DNA from: Pararhodobacter zhoushanensis
GTDB lineage: Bacteria > Pseudomonadota > Alphaproteobacteria > Rhodobacterales > Rhodobacteraceae
DNA: 64,000 nucleotides
Assembly (NCBI RefSeq): GCF_003990445.1
Contig: NZ_REEZ01000004.1
Span: 124,001-188,000, forward strand
Direction: 5' to 3'
Below the pieces are notes generated by a model. It was not told the DNA's origin and ran no database searches. It worked only from the letters and a program-made list of their open reading frames with translations. Every line of letters begins with the position of its first letter. The first letter of the stretch is position 1. Positions 56,431-64,000 of the stretch are shown in pieces. The translations under genes were made by a program, and so were the position numbers.

Positions 56431-57595
56431 CGCGCTGGTCATCGGCGCCGGTCCCGCCGGGCTGATGGCCGCTGACCGGCTTCTTGCCGCTGGCTTTACG
56501 GTGCTGCTGGCCGAGGCCAAACCTTCGCCCGGACGCAAGCTGCTGATGGCGGGTAAGTCCGGCCTGAACCTCACGAAAGCGGAAACGGCTGAGCGTTTTC
56601 TGTCCGTCTATGCCGAGGCTGAAGACTGGCTGCGCCCGATGCTTGCTGTCTTTGGGCCTGACCAGGTGCAGGACTGGGCGCGCGGGCTGGGACAAGAGGT
56701 CTTCACCGGCTCGTCGGGCCGTGTGTTTCCCCAAGCGATGAAGGCCTCGCCGCTGCTGCGCGCGTGGCTGGGGGACCTGTCGGCGCGCGGGCTGGACCTG
56801 CGGACGCGGTGGCGATGGCTGGGCGGCACGTCGTTTGCCACGCCCGAGGGGCAGCAGCAGGTGCAGCCCAAGGCCACCGTCCTGGCTCTGGGCGGGGCCA
56901 GCTGGGCGCGGTTGGGGTCGGACGGGGCGTGGTCCTCGGTCCTGACGGAGAAGGGCATTGCACTGGTGCCGTTTAAGCCGGCAAATATGGGCTTTCTGGT
57001 CGATTGGTCGCCGCATATGGCCAAGCAGTTCGGCCAGCCGCTGAAGTCCATCGCGCTCAGTGCCGGAACCCTGCGGGTACGGGGTGAGGCGGTGATCTCG
57101 GGGCGCGGGATTGAAGGGGGCGGGATTTACGCCGTCAGCCGGGCGCTGCGTGAGGGGGCGGCGCTGTTCATTGATCTTTTCCCGGACCGTGACAGTGAGG
57201 CTTTGACTGAGAAGATCGAGGCGCGGCCCAAAGGTGAGACCGTGGTGAACACCTTGAAGAAGCTGGGGCTTTCGGGTGCTTCATTGGCGTTGGCGCTGGA
57301 ATGTGCACGGCCCTTCCCGGCAGAGGCCGCAGCGCGCGCTGCGCTGCTCAAAGCGCTGCCGGTGCCGCTGATCGGTCCCCGCCCTATGGATGAGGCGATT
57401 TCGACCGCCGGGGGTATCCCGCGCGCCGCGTTGACCGATGACCTGATGCTGCGCCAGTGGCCCGGCGTGTTCGCGGCGGGCGAGATGCTGGATTGGGAAG
57501 CGCCGACCGGCGGCTACCTGTTGACGGCCTGTCTGGCAACCGGGCGATGGGCGGGCGATGCCGCCGCGCGGTTCATGCAATCCCGGTCAGGATAA
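56420..57595 (+). CDS. YhiN/HI0933-like flavoprotein (NAD(P)/FAD-dependent)
   Basis: A 391-residue protein starting MTPDALVIGAGPAGLMAADRLLAAGF (Rossmann FAD site) with GRKLLMAGKSGLNLT and a C-terminal GEMLDWEAPTGGYLLTACLATG. It belongs to the BaiN/YhiN-type reductase family; in vivo substrate unknown. Its 3' end overlaps the convergent PPTase gene by 23 bp. Confidence 0.85.
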   Translation: MTPDALVIGAGPAGLMAADRLLAAGFTVLLAEAKPSPGRKLLMAGKSGLNLTKAETAERFLSVYAEAEDWLRPMLAVFGPDQVQDWARGLGQEVFTGSSGRVFPQAMKASPLLRAWLGDLSARGLDLRTRWRWLGGTSFATPEGQQQVQPKATVLALGGASWARLGSDGAWSSVLTEKGIALVPFKPANMGFLVDWSPHMAKQFGQPLKSIALSAGTLRVRGEAVISGRGIEGGGIYAVSRALREGAALFIDLFPDRDSEALTEKIEARPKGETVVNTLKKLGLSGASLALALECARPFPAEAAARAALLKALPVPLIGPRPMDEAISTAGGIPRAALTDDLMLRQWPGVFAAGEMLDWEAPTGGYLLTACLATGRWAGDAAARFMQSRSG

Positions 57596-58205
57596 ACCCG
57601 CCGCCGATGGCATAGCGCCCGGACAGGATATGGCCGCGCTCGAACGGGCCGACATTGCGCTGGAATTCGGCGTGGAAGGTGGTGTCGCCCAGCGTGATGC
57701 AGATCACCTCAAACCCGAAAAGTTCTTTAGTAACAGGAAATTGCGCCTTATAGACGCATTCCTTGGCACTAAAGATCAGCTTGGCGCGGCGGGTGTCGGC
57801 CCCCAGCGCGGCGCGTTCTTTCGGCAGCAGGACGGTGCCGAAAACCTCGGTGGGAAGCGGTTCATCCTCTTCCAGATCAATGCCAATCAGGCCCTTGCCG
57901 ACAACCGCCAGCGCCCAGCCTTGCGTATGGGTAATCGACCCCGAGACGCCCGCAGGCCAGACCGGCGCGCGGTCGGGGCCCATGGGGATGGCGACGGATT
58001 GACCAAGGGCGCGGCGGGCCGCAGTGCGCCCGGCAGCGAATTCGCGACGACGCGCAGGGACCATCCGCGCGAGGGTCGCCTCTTCTTCCGGCATCACCGA
58101 AACATCGCTCGCCGAGGCAATGCCCAGTGCGATCTCTGGTGCAAAGACATCCGCCGCCAACCTTTCGAGCTGACGGCGGATGGCGCTATGGGTCGGCAGG
58201 GTCAT
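57573..58205 (-). CDS. 4'-phosphopantetheinyl transferase, EntD/Sfp superfamily
   Basis: A 210-residue enzyme that attaches the phosphopantetheine arm to carrier domains. It has SGSITHTQG, IGIDLEEDE (metal ligands) and FSAKECVYKAQ. Its start overlaps the NRPS stop (ATGA), so it is the last gene of the NRPS operon and likely activates the carrier domain at Ser1424 of the neighbour. The 3' end overlaps the convergent flavoprotein gene. Confidence 0.9.
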   Translation of the reverse strand: MTLPTHSAIRRQLERLAADVFAPEIALGIASASDVSVMPEEEATLARMVPARRREFAAGRTAARRALGQSVAIPMGPDRAPVWPAGVSGSITHTQGWALAVVGKGLIGIDLEEDEPLPTEVFGTVLLPKERAALGADTRRAKLIFSAKECVYKAQFPVTKELFGFEVICITLGDTTFHAEFQRNVGPFERGHILSGRYAIGGGFILTGIA

Positions 58206-61200
58206 CCGAGTTTACTCAAGCGCTCCGCCCGCATCGCGCGGCGCTTTGACATCGCGTCGAGCCTGCCACGCGCCGCTTCAGCCTCGACCGGGGCTGCGGG
58301 GGGCGGGGCGGCGCTGACGGGTTTCAGTTTGGCGTCGATATGGCTGGCGAGGGCGGACAGGACCGGGAAGCGGAATACATCGGTGATGGACAGGCCGGGG
58401 AGCGCCAGTGCCTCACGGATCTCTCGGTGCGCCTGCACGGCCAGCAGCGAATGGCCGCCCAGTTGGAAGAAATTGTCGCCCGGTTTGACCTCAACCACGC
58501 CCAGAACGTGGGTCCAGATCGCCGCGATCCTCGCTTGGGTGTCGCCCGCGTTGGCAGCGACCGGCGCAGCGATCACCGTGGGGCGCACCACGCCCGGCGC
58601 GGGTAGCGCCTTGCGGTCAATCTTTTTGTTCGGCGTCAGCGGGAAGCTGTCCAGCCGGAGGATCTGCGACGGCACCATATGCGCGGGCAATTGCGCGGCC
58701 AGCGCCGCTTTCAACCCGCCTGTGTCAGCGTGACCCATCACATAGCCGACCAGTCGGACGTCGCCCGGCACGTCTTCACGCGCGATAACAACGCTTTGCG
58801 TGACGCCGGATTGCGCGTCGAGCAGGGTTTCGATCTCGCCCAGCTCGATCCGATAGCCGCGGATCTTGACCTGATGATCGGCGCGGCCAAGGAAATCCAC
58901 CGCTCCATCAGCCCGCAGCCGCACCAGATCGCCGGTGCGATAGAGGCGCTCGCCACCGATGATGACAAACCGCTCCGCCGTCAGTTCCGCGCGCTGCCAA
59001 TAGCCGCGCGTGACCCCCGCGCCGCCGATCCACAGCTCACCCTCGGCCCCCAGCGGGACCGGGCGCTGCGCCTCGTCCAGCACATGCAGCGTGGTGTTGG
59101 CGATGGGCGTGCCGATGCCGACCACGCCGTCGCCGCCCATGCTGCGCGCGGTTGTGGACCAGATCGTCGTCTCGGTCGGGCCATACATATTCTGCACCGG
59201 CGCGCCGGTGATCTGCGCCAGCTCGGCAGCCAGTGCGCCCGGCAGGGCCTCACCCCCCACCATCATATGTTTCACGTGCGACAGCGCCGCGCGGGCCTCA
59301 TCATTGCCGGTCAGCATGCGCGCCATCGAGGGCGTGCATTGCAGATGCGTGACCTTGTGGCGCTGGATTTGCGCGGCGAGGGAGAAGTCATTGGCGTCCA
59401 GTTCGGCGGGCGCGTTCGAGCGGCGCAGCACTTCGGCCAGCGGATAGAGCCCTTCCAGCACCTGCCCGGTGGGGATGCCATAGTCGATCAGGCAGCCGAT
59501 TTCCGCGATGCCGATGGCCTTGAGTTGCTCGACCCGGCGCAGGCAGTCGTCGACAGTGCCGAACAGGCCGGAATCCTCGAAATAGCGATTGAACGCATAC
59601 TCCAGAATGCCATCGACCTCATCCTGGCTGAGGCTGTCCAAGTCGATTTGCATCGGGTTCGTCACGCCCTGCGGTTTCTTGAACGCCGGGAAAGCCCAGG
59701 CGTATTGCTTGACCAGCCCGGCGGCGGAGAGAAGATAGCTCTTCATCGGCCCGCGCGCCGTTTCGCGCGCAATCTCGCGCGTGCGGGCAACGTAGGTGTG
59801 CAGCATCAGCGTGACGGTGAAGTCCTTGGGGTCATGCCCGGCCTTGCGCAGCGCGGCGTGGTAGATCTTGATCTTGCCCGCGACCTCATCAATCGACTGG
59901 CCGAGCAGGTGGGTCAGCACATGCGCGCCGATTTCGCCGGCTTCACGCCAGGTATCGGGGTTGCCAGCGATGGTCAGCCAGAGCGGCAGTTCCTTGGACA
60001 CCGGGCGCGGCAGGGATTGCACGCTGCGCGTCTCGCCATTGTGGTCAAACTCGACCGCTTCGCCGCGCCAGAGTTTGCGCACGGTTTCGATGGTGTCGAA
60101 CATCGCGGCCTTGTTGTGGGGGACCGAATTTTCCGGCCGCAGCACAAAATCCACCGGATGCCAGCCCGAGGCCATCGCCACCCCGGCACGGCCATTGGTC
60201 AGGTTGTCGATGACCGCCCATTCCTCGGCAATCCGCAGCGGATGGTGCAGCGGAGCAACGCAAGAGCCTGATCTGACGTCGATATTCGTGGTAACAGCCG
60301 CCACCGCCGCCCCGGTCACAGCGGGGTTCGGGTACGGTCCACCGAAGGCGTGGAAGTGGCGTTCCGGGGTCCAGACGGCGCGGAAACCGTGCGTGTCGGC
60401 GAATTTCGCGCCCTCCAGCAGCAGCTCGTATTTCTGTGGGCCGGGGCCGTCGTCATTGCCCCAGTAGAACAGGCTGAAGTCCATTTTCTGGTCGGACACG
60501 GGCAGCGATCCGCCCGAGACCATCATGCGGTCCTCATCCGAGGTCAGCACCAGCTTGAACCCGCGCGCCAAGGTCCAGAACAGCTCCAGCACCGAAATAT
60601 CGAAGCTGAGCGAGGTCACGGCCAGCCAGACGCCCGCCGGGTCATGCTGGATACGGTCTTCCATCCCGGCGAAGAAATTGGCGACGTTGCGGTGTTCGAC
60701 CATCACGCCCTTGGGCAACCCGGTCGAGCCCGAGGTGTAGATCAGATACGCAAGGTTTTCGGGGGCCGCGCCGGTTTCGGGGTTCGCCTCGCTCGCGGCG
60801 GCCAGCCTTGTGTCGGTGTCCAGCACCAGCAGCTGCGCGGCGTGGTCGGGCAGCGTGTCGATCAGCCCGGATTGGGTGACGATCACCGGGGCGGCGCTGT
60901 CGGTCAGGAAGTGCTTGAGCCGGTCGGCGGGATAGGACGGGTCCATCGGCACATAGGCACCGCCCGCTTTCAGGATGCCCAGCGCGCCGATCAGCAGATC
61001 AGGCGAGCGCCGGGCGCAGAGCGCGACGGGGGTGTCGGGTTTGATGCCCATCGCTTGCAGCGTGTGCGCGACGCGGTTCGCCTTGGCGTTCAGCTGGGCG
61101 TAGGTCAGGCTTTGACCCTCGAACACCAGCGCGGTGGCCTGCGGGGTCTTGGCGACCTGGGCCTCGAACAGCTGCGCGATGGTCTGGTTATCGAAGGGAC

Positions 61201-62719
61201 GGTCGGTCGCATTCAGCTGGTTCAGGATCGCGCATTCAGGGGCGCTGATCAGGTCGAGCGTGGTGAGGGGCGTTGCGGTGTCAGCGTCAGCCAGATGCGC
61301 GATGCGCCCGGCAAAGAGGTCAAGCGTGGCTTCATCCACTAGCGACAGGTCGGCCGAGAGCGTCGCGCCCTCGGGCCCGGCGGTGATGCACAGGGCGGTG
61401 CCGTCGATCCGCTCGCCAGCGGTGGAGAGACCCAGCGCGGGGGTTGGGATCGGCATCAGGGCCGGGTCACGCCCGATCAGATCGCGGGCGTAAGACGGGT
61501 GTTTTGTGGTGGCCTCGACGGTCGCGCTAATCGCGGCTTCCAGCGCGGAGAGGCTGTCGCCTTGCGGAATCATCGGCACCCAAGGAGCGATATAGCCCGG
61601 CGCGGAATTGTGCGCGGATTTGGTTTCAGCCCCAGTGAACGCCCAGCCGCCCGGCGCATAGGCCGACAAGATCGCAGCGGCGCGGGGGGCGGAAACGCCG
61701 GTCAGGGCGCGGGTCGCGATGCCCTGACCGCCCGGTTTCGCGGCCAGATCGGCGGCGGTGAAGCTGCTCAACGCCTTGCGCCAATGTGCCTCGCCTGACG
61801 TTACGCGCGCCATCGCGTCGGTCAGCGAAGGCTCAGGCGCGCTTAGGATTTCCCCAACGCTGGCAATGTCTTGCACCGGCAGACCGCCCAGACAGGTGAT
61901 CCCGCTCAGCCGCACCGCGCCATCGGCGCAGGCGACGCTCAGTGTGTCGCCAACCGCAAGCACGGTGCCCGCAGCGCCCTGCCCGGCAACAACCTCAGCC
62001 TGCCCGACTGCATAGACCCCGCGCGCGGTTTCAATCTTGGGCAGCGCCAGCGGGTTCCAGTAGCCCGCGTGATCCAAGGCGCGGACCATCCGCACAACCT
62101 CAGCCGCAGGGCGGGTATAATCCAACCGTGCCGCCATCGCAGGGCGGTCATCGCGAAGCGTCAGCGTACGTTGGCTCAGATCCTGAGCGCGCCGGTTTGG
62201 CACGCCCTGCTCCAGCGCGGTAATCACCGCCGGGAAACTCTCGATCGCCGCGCCATAGCAGCGGGCGTTCAGGGAAAAGGCGGTATCCTCGGGCGTGATC
62301 TCGAACAGCGCCTGTTCGACGATGTCGCCCTCATCCACGCCCCCCTCGATCATGTGCCAGGTGATGCCGTGCTGCGCCTCGCCGTTCAGCAAGGCCCAGA
62401 CCGGCGCGTTCAGACCGGCGTAGCGCGGCAGCGGGCCGTCGTGGAAATTGACCGCCCCCTTGGCCGCGCGGGACAGCAGCGCGTCGGGCAGCAGCGAGAG
62501 GTTGGCGATCGACAGCAGCCAGTCAAACGGCTCGGTGACCCGCCCCTCAATCCCCTTGCCCGGCGCGACCACGGGGATGCCCGCCGTCTCAGCCCAGGCG
62601 ATCACCTCAGCATTGCGACTGGCGATGGTGGTGATGGAGTGTCCGCGACCCAGCAGAAGCTTTGCGCCTTGAATCAGCAGGGATTCATTGCCAACCAACA
62701 CACATGAAAACGGGGTCAT
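58202..62719 (-). CDS. NRPS: formyltransferase, condensation remnant, adenylation domain split by luciferase-like monooxygenase, carrier
   Basis: A 1505-residue nonribosomal peptide synthetase. Residues 1-225 are a formyltransferase fold: NFHDGPLPRYAG carries N91 and H93, and D129 (GGVDEGD) completes the N-H-D triad with Fmt-like spacing; a shortened C-terminal part follows. Residues 285-490 resemble a condensation domain, especially the end DLSLVDEATLDLF, but HHxxxDG is absent. The adenylation domain (505-735 and 1096-1375) has A3 YTSGSTGLPKG, A4 SFDISVLELF, A5 NMYGPTETT, A8 LYRTGDLVRLR and A10 NKKIDRKAL; between A4 and A5 lies an FMN luciferase-like monooxygenase (740-1095, from MDFSLFYWGND). 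The carrier has S1424 in GGHSLL. ATG at 62719 follows AGGAG; earlier in-frame starts overlap the next gene. Confidence 0.9.
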   Translation of the reverse strand: MTPFSCVLVGNESLLIQGAKLLLGRGHSITTIASRNAEVIAWAETAGIPVVAPGKGIEGRVTEPFDWLLSIANLSLLPDALLSRAAKGAVNFHDGPLPRYAGLNAPVWALLNGEAQHGITWHMIEGGVDEGDIVEQALFEITPEDTAFSLNARCYGAAIESFPAVITALEQGVPNRRAQDLSQRTLTLRDDRPAMAARLDYTRPAAEVVRMVRALDHAGYWNPLALPKIETARGVYAVGQAEVVAGQGAAGTVLAVGDTLSVACADGAVRLSGITCLGGLPVQDIASVGEILSAPEPSLTDAMARVTSGEAHWRKALSSFTAADLAAKPGGQGIATRALTGVSAPRAAAILSAYAPGGWAFTGAETKSAHNSAPGYIAPWVPMIPQGDSLSALEAAISATVEATTKHPSYARDLIGRDPALMPIPTPALGLSTAGERIDGTALCITAGPEGATLSADLSLVDEATLDLFAGRIAHLADADTATPLTTLDLISAPECAILNQLNATDRPFDNQTIAQLFEAQVAKTPQATALVFEGQSLTYAQLNAKANRVAHTLQAMGIKPDTPVALCARRSPDLLIGALGILKAGGAYVPMDPSYPADRLKHFLTDSAAPVIVTQSGLIDTLPDHAAQLLVLDTDTRLAAASEANPETGAAPENLAYLIYTSGSTGLPKGVMVEHRNVANFFAGMEDRIQHDPAGVWLAVTSLSFDISVLELFWTLARGFKLVLTSDEDRMMVSGGSLPVSDQKMDFSLFYWGNDDGPGPQKYELLLEGAKFADTHGFRAVWTPERHFHAFGGPYPNPAVTGAAVAAVTTNIDVRSGSCVAPLHHPLRIAEEWAVIDNLTNGRAGVAMASGWHPVDFVLRPENSVPHNKAAMFDTIETVRKLWRGEAVEFDHNGETRSVQSLPRPVSKELPLWLTIAGNPDTWREAGEIGAHVLTHLLGQSIDEVAGKIKIYHAALRKAGHDPKDFTVTLMLHTYVARTREIARETARGPMKSYLLSAAGLVKQYAWAFPAFKKPQGVTNPMQIDLDSLSQDEVDGILEYAFNRYFEDSGLFGTVDDCLRRVEQLKAIGIAEIGCLIDYGIPTGQVLEGLYPLAEVLRRSNAPAELDANDFSLAAQIQRHKVTHLQCTPSMARMLTGNDEARAALSHVKHMMVGGEALPGALAAELAQITGAPVQNMYGPTETTIWSTTARSMGGDGVVGIGTPIANTTLHVLDEAQRPVPLGAEGELWIGGAGVTRGYWQRAELTAERFVIIGGERLYRTGDLVRLRADGAVDFLGRADHQVKIRGYRIELGEIETLLDAQSGVTQSVVIAREDVPGDVRLVGYVMGHADTGGLKAALAAQLPAHMVPSQILRLDSFPLTPNKKIDRKALPAPGVVRPTVIAAPVAANAGDTQARIAAIWTHVLGVVEVKPGDNFFQLGGHSLLAVQAHREIREALALPGLSITDVFRFPVLSALASHIDAKLKPVSAAPPPAAPVEAEAARGRLDAMSKRRAMRAERLSKLG

Positions 62720-62744
62720 CTTTACTCTCCTGGGGTCTGCGCAT

Positions 62745-63659
62745 TCAGACGCTATGTCGCAAAAGATCGCGGAGAAAGTGTGGCGGTGTCTGGCGCGGTT
62801 TGCGTTGCAAGACCACACGCAGGCCATAAATCCCCAAGCCCGCAACATGCGCCGCCGTCGCGGCCAGCGCATAAAGCCGTCCGTGGTTCTTTTCAAAATA
62901 GTGACGGCGCGAGGCAAACCAATACCCCGGCACGCGCGCCCATTCCTTCATGCCCGTGCTGACCGAGCCGATATGCATCACCCGGCTTTCCACCACATAG
63001 ACCGCCTGCCACCCGGCCCGCGCGCCGCGCAGGAAGAGGTCGGTTTCCTCGAAATACAGAAAGAACGTCTCATCAAAGAGGCCGATCCGATACAGCATCT
63101 CGCGCCGCATCAGCACGCTGGCCCCGGCGACCCAATCAACCTCCGTGGTGGTGGTGGGCAGCGTCGGGGCGACGATGGCGCTTTTGAGCAGTTTCGAGAT
63201 CGGACCGGTCTTTGCCGCCCCTTCAAATTCGCTGGCGATCGAGGGGAAGCGGAAGGCGGTGGTGTGCGGCGCGCCGTCGGGGCCGTGGATATGGCTGCCA
63301 GCGAAGCCGACCTGCGGATGGGCATCGAGGTAATCCACCAGCACGCGGATCGCATCCGGCGCAGGGAAAGCGTCCGAGTTCAGGATATAGACGTAATCGG
63401 GCGCTGAGCCATCGGGCAGCCCGGCGCGGATGCCAACATTATTGCCCGCGCCAAACCCGCCGTTGTGCCCCGATTGCAGCACGCGCACGCCGGGCCAACC
63501 GGCGGCGCTGAGCGTCTCATAGCTGCCGTCCTGACTGTCATTATCGACAACGGTGATCGCGCCCTCGATCCCCTGCATCGCGATGATTGCGCTTTCGACC
63601 GCGCGCGCTGTCATCTCGGCGGTGCGCCAATTCAGGATGATGCACAACACGCTGCTCAT
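62745..63659 (-). CDS. Glycosyltransferase family 2
   Basis: A 304-residue GT-A transferase: VLCIILNWRTAEMTARAVES, TVVDNDSQDGSYE, FGAGNNVGIRAG, DYVYILNSDAF (in place of DxD), GASVLMRREMLYRIGLFDETFFLYFEETDLFLRG. This is the rhamnosyl/wbbL-like type. A C-terminal hydrophobic segment may bind the membrane. It lies 25 bp before the NRPS gene and overlaps the upstream thioesterase-like gene (ATGA), so it is probably part of the same pathway or a sugar-decorating step. Confidence 0.88.
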   Translation of the reverse strand: MSSVLCIILNWRTAEMTARAVESAIIAMQGIEGAITVVDNDSQDGSYETLSAAGWPGVRVLQSGHNGGFGAGNNVGIRAGLPDGSAPDYVYILNSDAFPAPDAIRVLVDYLDAHPQVGFAGSHIHGPDGAPHTTAFRFPSIASEFEGAAKTGPISKLLKSAIVAPTLPTTTTEVDWVAGASVLMRREMLYRIGLFDETFFLYFEETDLFLRGARAGWQAVYVVESRVMHIGSVSTGMKEWARVPGYWFASRRHYFEKNHGRLYALAATAAHVAGLGIYGLRVVLQRKPRQTPPHFLRDLLRHSV

Positions 63660-64000
63660 GCTTCGGCCTTTGCGATCAGGGCTTTCAGTTTCGCCGCCAT
63701 CACCCGCACATTGGGTTCCAGCACCATGCTGTCATGGTCGCCCGGCACCTCATGCACGCCCAGCTGCGGCATCCACGGCGACCAGTCGTTATCCTCGGAC
63801 ACGTATTCCTTGGCCTGACTGACCCAGCGGCCGCCGGTGACCTTCCAGTGCTTGTCCAGCGCCGGGCGGAACAGGGCGACGGGGGCGTCGTAGCGCTCAA
63901 GCGACAGATGCGGCAGCGCGTCGCGAAAGGCAGATTCGATGGCGCGGTTGTGGAAACCGCTGTCAGCCTCGCCCTGCGCTTCCTCGGCCATGCGGGCGAG
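63656..64000 (-). CDS. Probable thioesterase domain C-terminus of a nonribosomal peptide enzyme, truncated by the window edge
   Basis: The visible 115 or so residues continue beyond 64000. They have the ending of an alpha/beta-hydrolase thioesterase: ALFRPALDKHW, then LGVHEVPGDHDSMVLEPNVRVMA, where H in GDHDSM is the expected catalytic histidine. It may be the releasing domain of a larger NRPS; the catalytic serine and any upstream modules are outside. Stop overlaps the glycosyltransferase start. Confidence 0.7.
   Translation of the reverse strand, partial: LARMAEEAQGEADSGFHNRAIESAFRDALPHLSLERYDAPVALFRPALDKHWKVTGGRWVSQAKEYVSEDNDWSPWMPQLGVHEVPGDHDSMVLEPNVRVMAAKLKALIAKAEA

Follow-up and report, generated by a model that had tools for sequence, protein, structure and literature searches.

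In the glycine module of the myxothiazol and melithiazol pathways, hydroxylation at C-alpha is followed by break-up of the carbinolamide to a glyoxylyl thioester (PMC10204066, PMC11342130), and solanimycin retains hydroxyglycine (PMC10204066). The adenylation (A) domains of the myxothiazol type carry a glycine-type code and a flavin monooxygenase between motifs a4 and a5; the solanimycin oxygenase, part of SolF, sits between a8 and a9 (PMC10204066), a position also given for monooxygenase inserts in PMC12283262. Luciferase-like monooxygenases (LLMs) are found in MupA, which acts in trans and in vitro hydroxylates a beta-ketoacyl-acyl carrier protein (ACP) while rejecting the beta-hydroxy form (PMC10952193), and in PuwE, whose oxygenase is tied to a 3-amino-2-hydroxy acyl unit (PMC4219810). 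In the fabrubactin-type siderophore pathway, FbnE occurs with FbnL/FbnM and siderophore transport (PMC12971057). Here we describe an operon at the end of a 64,000-nucleotide stretch of Pararhodobacter zhoushanensis DNA (the window; contig C34, positions 124001–188000, of a 4.83-Mb genome) that joins an LLM-containing non-ribosomal peptide synthetase (NRPS)-like protein to a type I polyketide synthase (PKS). This two-protein assembly line, on balance, probably supplies an exopolysaccharide with a short acyl group, the polysaccharide link resting on synteny and co-occurrence, and the suggested substrate and chemistry on sequence and the above precedents.

Pfam places Formyl_trans_N at NRPS residues 74–165 (63.3 bits), AMP-binding over two stretches (315.8 bits), Bac_luciferase at residues 757–1071 (161.1 bits) and PP-binding at residues 1397–1461 (38 bits), and the protein scores 470.4 bits on TIGR04020, against a curated cut-off of 244.45. 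The A domain resembles those of myxothiazol and melithiazol in that the LLM lies between A4 (FDIS, 706–709) and A5 (YGPTE, 1179–1183), a site that differs from A8–A9. Its code residues, taken from 707–711 ahead of the LLM and from 1131 onward behind it, read DILSMGMIWK, two differences from the published DILQLGMIWK with positions set by motif, which suggests a glycine-type domain with glycine as the predicted substrate. In the myxothiazol and melithiazol systems, however, the last module carries a condensation (C) domain and a thioesterase (TE) and ends in amide release, whereas the present NRPS has an N-terminal formyltransferase (FT), no working C domain and no TE of its own. The oxygenase shares its family with MupA and PuwE (best solved match PuwE 6ket, 357 bits) but, unlike MupA, is built into the NRPS. 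A further likeness is to LgrA, the linear gramicidin synthetase, in which an FT likewise precedes the A domain and peptidyl carrier protein (PCP) and an active C domain is absent. The FT matches the LgrA F domain with an E-value of about 1e-8; its best alignments, which span 280 residues, are nevertheless with ArnA and Fmt, and it is accompanied by a C relic and the LLM. Ahead of the A–PCP portion it carries the Asn, His and Asp that we take to be catalytic. Solanimycin SolG, which tops the NCBIfam results, was set aside, as it matches via the A domain alone (479 bits against a cut-off of 2200) and the oxygenase of SolF is inserted elsewhere.

The stretch behind the FT, called a C remnant in an earlier note on the window, keeps that description in part. 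In an AlphaFold model of residues 1–525 (mean pLDDT 95.7), residues of about 295–515 are confidently folded, with ten-residue pLDDT means mostly above 90, and their profile matches just the tail of solved C domains plus the C–A linker (best E 2.1e-7), which gives partial support. As half a C domain, the stretch was rejected: comparison with three C domains by hhalign was not significant (E 0.16, probability 0.4%), and neither a single-sequence search nor Pfam matched it. The HHxxxD core of HHxxxDG does not occur in the NRPS protein (P0001), and a scan of the first 520 residues of 80 orthologues reported no match. With an FT and no working C domain, the NRPS reads as a loading module.

The protein itself is common. 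NCBI annotation already labels full-length relatives 'MupA/Atu3671 family FMN-dependent luciferase-like monooxygenase', and those in Rhodobacterales and Rhizobiales share architecture and length (42–57% identity over 97–100% of the query among the first 16 plasmid matches listed; up to 82% among GTDB relatives). Among 293 genomes sampled across the order, 125 score above the TIGR04020 cut-off, and a profile of FT plus relic, at 1e-40, finds 21 of 397 genomes of the phylum (13 in the same family, seven in the class and one further off). Product and role are not named in the records of these relatives; what is notable, and added here, is the polysaccharide setting.

A GTDB scan gave 260 relatives, the best 80 of which were used as loci (L005–L084), several ending at contig ends. 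GT2 is found in 79 of these 80 loci, the PKS in 75 and the 4'-phosphopantetheinyl transferase (PPTase) in 75; the PPTase was not seen at L013, L050 and L077, and GT2 is missing between PKS and NRPS at L067 and L081. Because the same gene set recurs across other genomes, the operon is more than a chance arrangement. Neighbours were named by clustering the open frames of the 80 loci and running Pfam and NCBIfam on representatives; those that recur are Wzx, glycosyltransferases of types GT2 and GT4, and two proteins that score under the cut-offs, one chain-length-like (TIGR03007, 92 bits) and one kinase-like (TIGR03018, 70 bits). At least one polysaccharide-type match occurs in 65 of the 66 loci whose two flanks each reach 9.5 kb or more (L019, L042, L048, L050, L006 and others are cut by contig ends), and at least one match of a strict kind in 60. 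The controls, 20 stretches of 20 kb each from two genomes set against loci of mostly 24–27 kb, yielded a match in one (RfbA) and strict kinds in none.

The setting extends beyond the family. A plasmid search matched 2585 records, and the ten stretches read among 40 matches listed include annotated ones from Ruegeria, Parasedimentitalea, Paracoccus, Aminobacter, Shinella and Deinococcus in which the pair stands among polysaccharide genes. Marker tblastn found the same setting in Rhizobium BG6, G006, G430, G496 and G612; in Methylobacterium, G320 and G638 the signs were weaker. Eight non-family genomes were matched and seven examined (G459 was left out), five of which have polysaccharide-type neighbours, clear in G430, G496 and G612. 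On the tree described below, the NRPS from the Methylobacterium plasmid record (L136) and the one from G320 (L145) are near-identical, so they count as one witness. An assembly line that sits among exopolysaccharide genes, as this one does in numerous marine bacteria and certain of their relatives, may decorate the polymer rather than yield a free antibiotic. One record titled Nocardioides marinus DP1N28-1, an actinobacterium (L063), holds a Rhodobacteraceae operon in the same order with 57% NRPS identity, and is probably mislabelled or a mixed assembly.

The operon's own layout (Table 1) agrees with the earlier note, which had listed four close or overlapping minus-strand genes running past the window, including a 1505-residue F-(C remnant)-A[LLM]-PCP protein, an Sfp-type PPTase and a GT2; this observation of genes and domains is confirmed. 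The PPTase and NRPS genes overlap by four bases, as do those of GT2 and PKS, and 25 bases separate GT2 from the NRPS, whose ATG at 62719 is preceded by GGAGAG. PF01648 has two matches genome-wide, one being the operon's PPTase. The thioesterase-like C-terminus that had also been noted is indeed a TE, amended in that it ends a 2109-aa type I PKS of the order ketosynthase (KS), acyltransferase (AT), ketoreductase (KR), dehydratase (DH), ACP and TE, encoded at contig C34 187656–193985 (L003 6657–12986). With this PKS, which starts beyond position 64000, the system is a PKS–NRPS hybrid. All six PKS domains exceed their Pfam cut-offs, and an enoyl reductase is not among them. The active-site residues, whose roles we presume from the familiar motifs, are kept in 78–79 of 79 rows. 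The AT motif is unusual (IAAHS) and the DH lacks the usual Gln/His after the Asp (G there in 77 of 79), so that malonate choice and dehydration are uncertain.

Table 1. Features of the operon in the window, in window positions
Feature	Position	Strand	Evidence
Sfp/PptT-like 4'-phosphopantetheinyl transferase, 210 aa	57573..58205	-	4PPT_N 77.2 bits, ACPS 40.1 bits, both above cut-off
NRPS-like protein, 1505 aa: FT (1–294), condensation relic (about 295–510), LLM-split A domain, PCP	58202..62719	-	Pfam, NCBIfam, AlphaFold
Luciferase-like flavin mononucleotide (FMN) monooxygenase (TIGR04020), NRPS residues 748–1097	59429..60478	-	470.4 bits
Formyltransferase domain, residues 1–294, N- and C-terminal subdomains	61838..62719	-	
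GT2 glycosyltransferase, 304 aa, flanked by PKS and NRPS genes	62745..63659	-	Glyco_tranf_2_3 52.7 bits, Glycos_transf_2 46.7 bits, above cut-off
Type I PKS, C-terminal end; frame open beyond window	63656..64000	-	TE His (residue 2084) inside

On this basis, the A domain would load glycine onto the PCP, the FT domain would N-formylate it there, and the inserted LLM would oxidise the alpha carbon. An N-formyl-alpha-hydroxyglycyl unit, or a glyoxylyl thioester after carbinolamide break-up, could then pass to the KS of the PKS, which would extend it by one malonyl-type unit, reduce it with the KR and perhaps dehydrate it with the DH, the PPTase activating both PCP and ACP. The TE would release or transfer the acyl group, which may end up on the repeat unit that the adjacent glycosyltransferases assemble and Wzx/Wzy process. 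The genes, their domains, the conserved motifs, the recurrent polysaccharide neighbourhood and the co-occurrence are observed; we infer glycine, each reaction, the single extension, and the attachment to polysaccharide with its site and linkage. By analogy, the LLM might act at either of two times: ahead of extension, with N-formylglycyl-PCP as substrate, or later, once the beta-keto chain has formed. Oxime formation as in lobatamide was discarded: the literature gave necroximes and the like with no support for the LLM family, and a PDB search with the LLM listed no such enzyme. In its full form, the proposal is that the pair, which is conserved across the Rhodobacterales and also occurs in Rhizobiales and Deinococcus, constitutes a dedicated exopolysaccharide tailoring branch. 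The polyketide acyl group that it adds would derive from glycine and be formylated and alpha-oxidised, or else be glyoxylyl, with an aldehyde, and could create reactive or metal-binding sites. We put this forward tentatively, as a possibility of low probability, and rate the specific oxidised-glycine substituent about as low. The N-formyl, hydroxylated, perhaps glycosylated small product envisaged in the earlier note thus keeps plausible formylation and oxidation, and its product may be better read as a polysaccharide-linked acyl group.

Several points weigh against an exopolysaccharide acyl group of this kind. Chemically, as MupA acts on beta-ketoacyl-ACP, the LLM could act after extension, and N-acyl-alpha-hydroxyglycine is labile and thus fits poorly with a retained starter. 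Synteny does not prove attachment to polysaccharide, the markers were in part drawn from the very neighbourhoods they were used to score, and of the 260 relatives it was the 80 closest that served as loci. Two of the seven non-family genomes, G530 and G614, lack polysaccharide neighbours, the pair in G530 standing beside TRAP transporter genes; in Aliiroseovarius (L138) it lies beside nosZ genes and NRPS/PKS, and in Rhizobium T136 (L139) in a large NRPS/PKS cluster. On a tree of 33 rows, 28 of them labelled polysaccharide-type (including L036, where no marker was found), Rhizobium T136 and G614 are separate, and Aliiroseovarius and G530 fall inside the polysaccharide-neighbour group; the label needs two changes and so does not mark one clade. 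In P. zhoushanensis itself, other genes, about 9 kb of them, interrupt the polysaccharide cluster, three Wza and three initiating sugar-transferase genes lie on other contigs, and hyp317 had no match in the genome, an empty result that tells little. 

The earlier note had expected further modules, transporters and regulators beyond position 64000; instead, what comes next, upstream of the PKS, is a Wzy_C-like protein (28.5 bits, below the 31.7 cut-off), a WecG on the opposite strand (158 bits) and a second GT2 (57.5 bits), and about 9–15 kb past the latter come Wzz-like, Wzx, GT4 and GT2 genes (L108 7928–13763), with matches of 38% over 420 aa for Wzz and 48% over 417 aa for Wzx. By eye, the separating block begins with thiolase-like and AMP-ligase-like genes (L003 16438–19001 and the start of L108).

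An alternative is a diffusible product, for instance a signal, a siderophore or an antibiotic, to which the GT2 might add a sugar, made by an operon that merely shares a genomic island with polysaccharide genes. PKS–NRPS hybrids usually make such compounds, distant relatives occur in NRPS/PKS clusters apart from polysaccharide genes, and NRPS/PKS genes of Phaeobacter inhibens (PMC4062626) and Tritonibacter mobilis (PMC11225332) are listed under secondary metabolism. Yet polysaccharide neighbours recur across families and in Deinococcus, the NRPS co-occurs with a locus family, and no receptor, major facilitator superfamily or immunity gene was noticed near the operon, though no search was aimed at them; we regard a diffusible product as fairly unlikely. 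In line with the earlier note, which gave no described Rhodobacterales product of this form, no described product was found: the accessible part of PMC4062626 mentions the P. inhibens PKS/NRPS without a product. The numbers of its PKS (Inhi_1972) and NRPS (Inhi_1974), by themselves, leave a one-gene spacing that fits PKS–GT2–NRPS (PMC4062626). In the open-access literature, a link between the pair and polysaccharide was not found either, a weak absence given that most subscription papers lie outside that scope.

A polysaccharide connection of another sort would arise if the PKS acted iteratively on the NRPS-derived starter, producing a longer acyl chain to serve as anchor or primer of the polymer. 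RkpA, linked to K-antigen in Sinorhizobium, is a precedent with a long acyl chain, and a single module with a TE beside polysaccharide genes, further modules not having been seen, would suit this; saturated chains, however, are not expected without an enoyl reductase among the Pfam domains, and we rate the idea as rather improbable. A dead or moonlighting pathway in this strain, as the split cluster might suggest, is very improbable in view of stop-free open frames, translational overlaps, intact and conserved active-site positions and 76–82% identity to same-group relatives.

If the short-acyl reading is right, a polysaccharide-decorating pair has been filed by genome miners as an orphan secondary-metabolite cluster, at a scale of more than 40% of sampled Rhodobacterales genomes by the LLM-family count given above. 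It would also mean a new kind of substituent for marine biofilm polymers, tying assembly-line enzymology to the chemistry of the extracellular matrix.

Two accessory families were observed at the loci. One (L029 17338–18291), directly after the PPTase, has homologues in 51 of the 80 loci; it has no Pfam or NCBIfam match, shows an RR-containing N-terminus by eye and is modelled as a putative SGNH hydrolase. The other, an 839-aa family (L024 18486–21005), strongly co-occurs with the LLM-NRPS; its P. zhoushanensis member (L108 13769–15523) follows the Wzx-type genes and lacks the family's N-terminal half. No Pfam match exceeds the cut-off (the N-terminus has a weak GDSL match, E 0.0012, under it), and the C-terminal half has no PDB match. 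The conserved C-terminal part contains the motifs NEVWN and YEGGSH, which are reminiscent of clan-A glycosidases.
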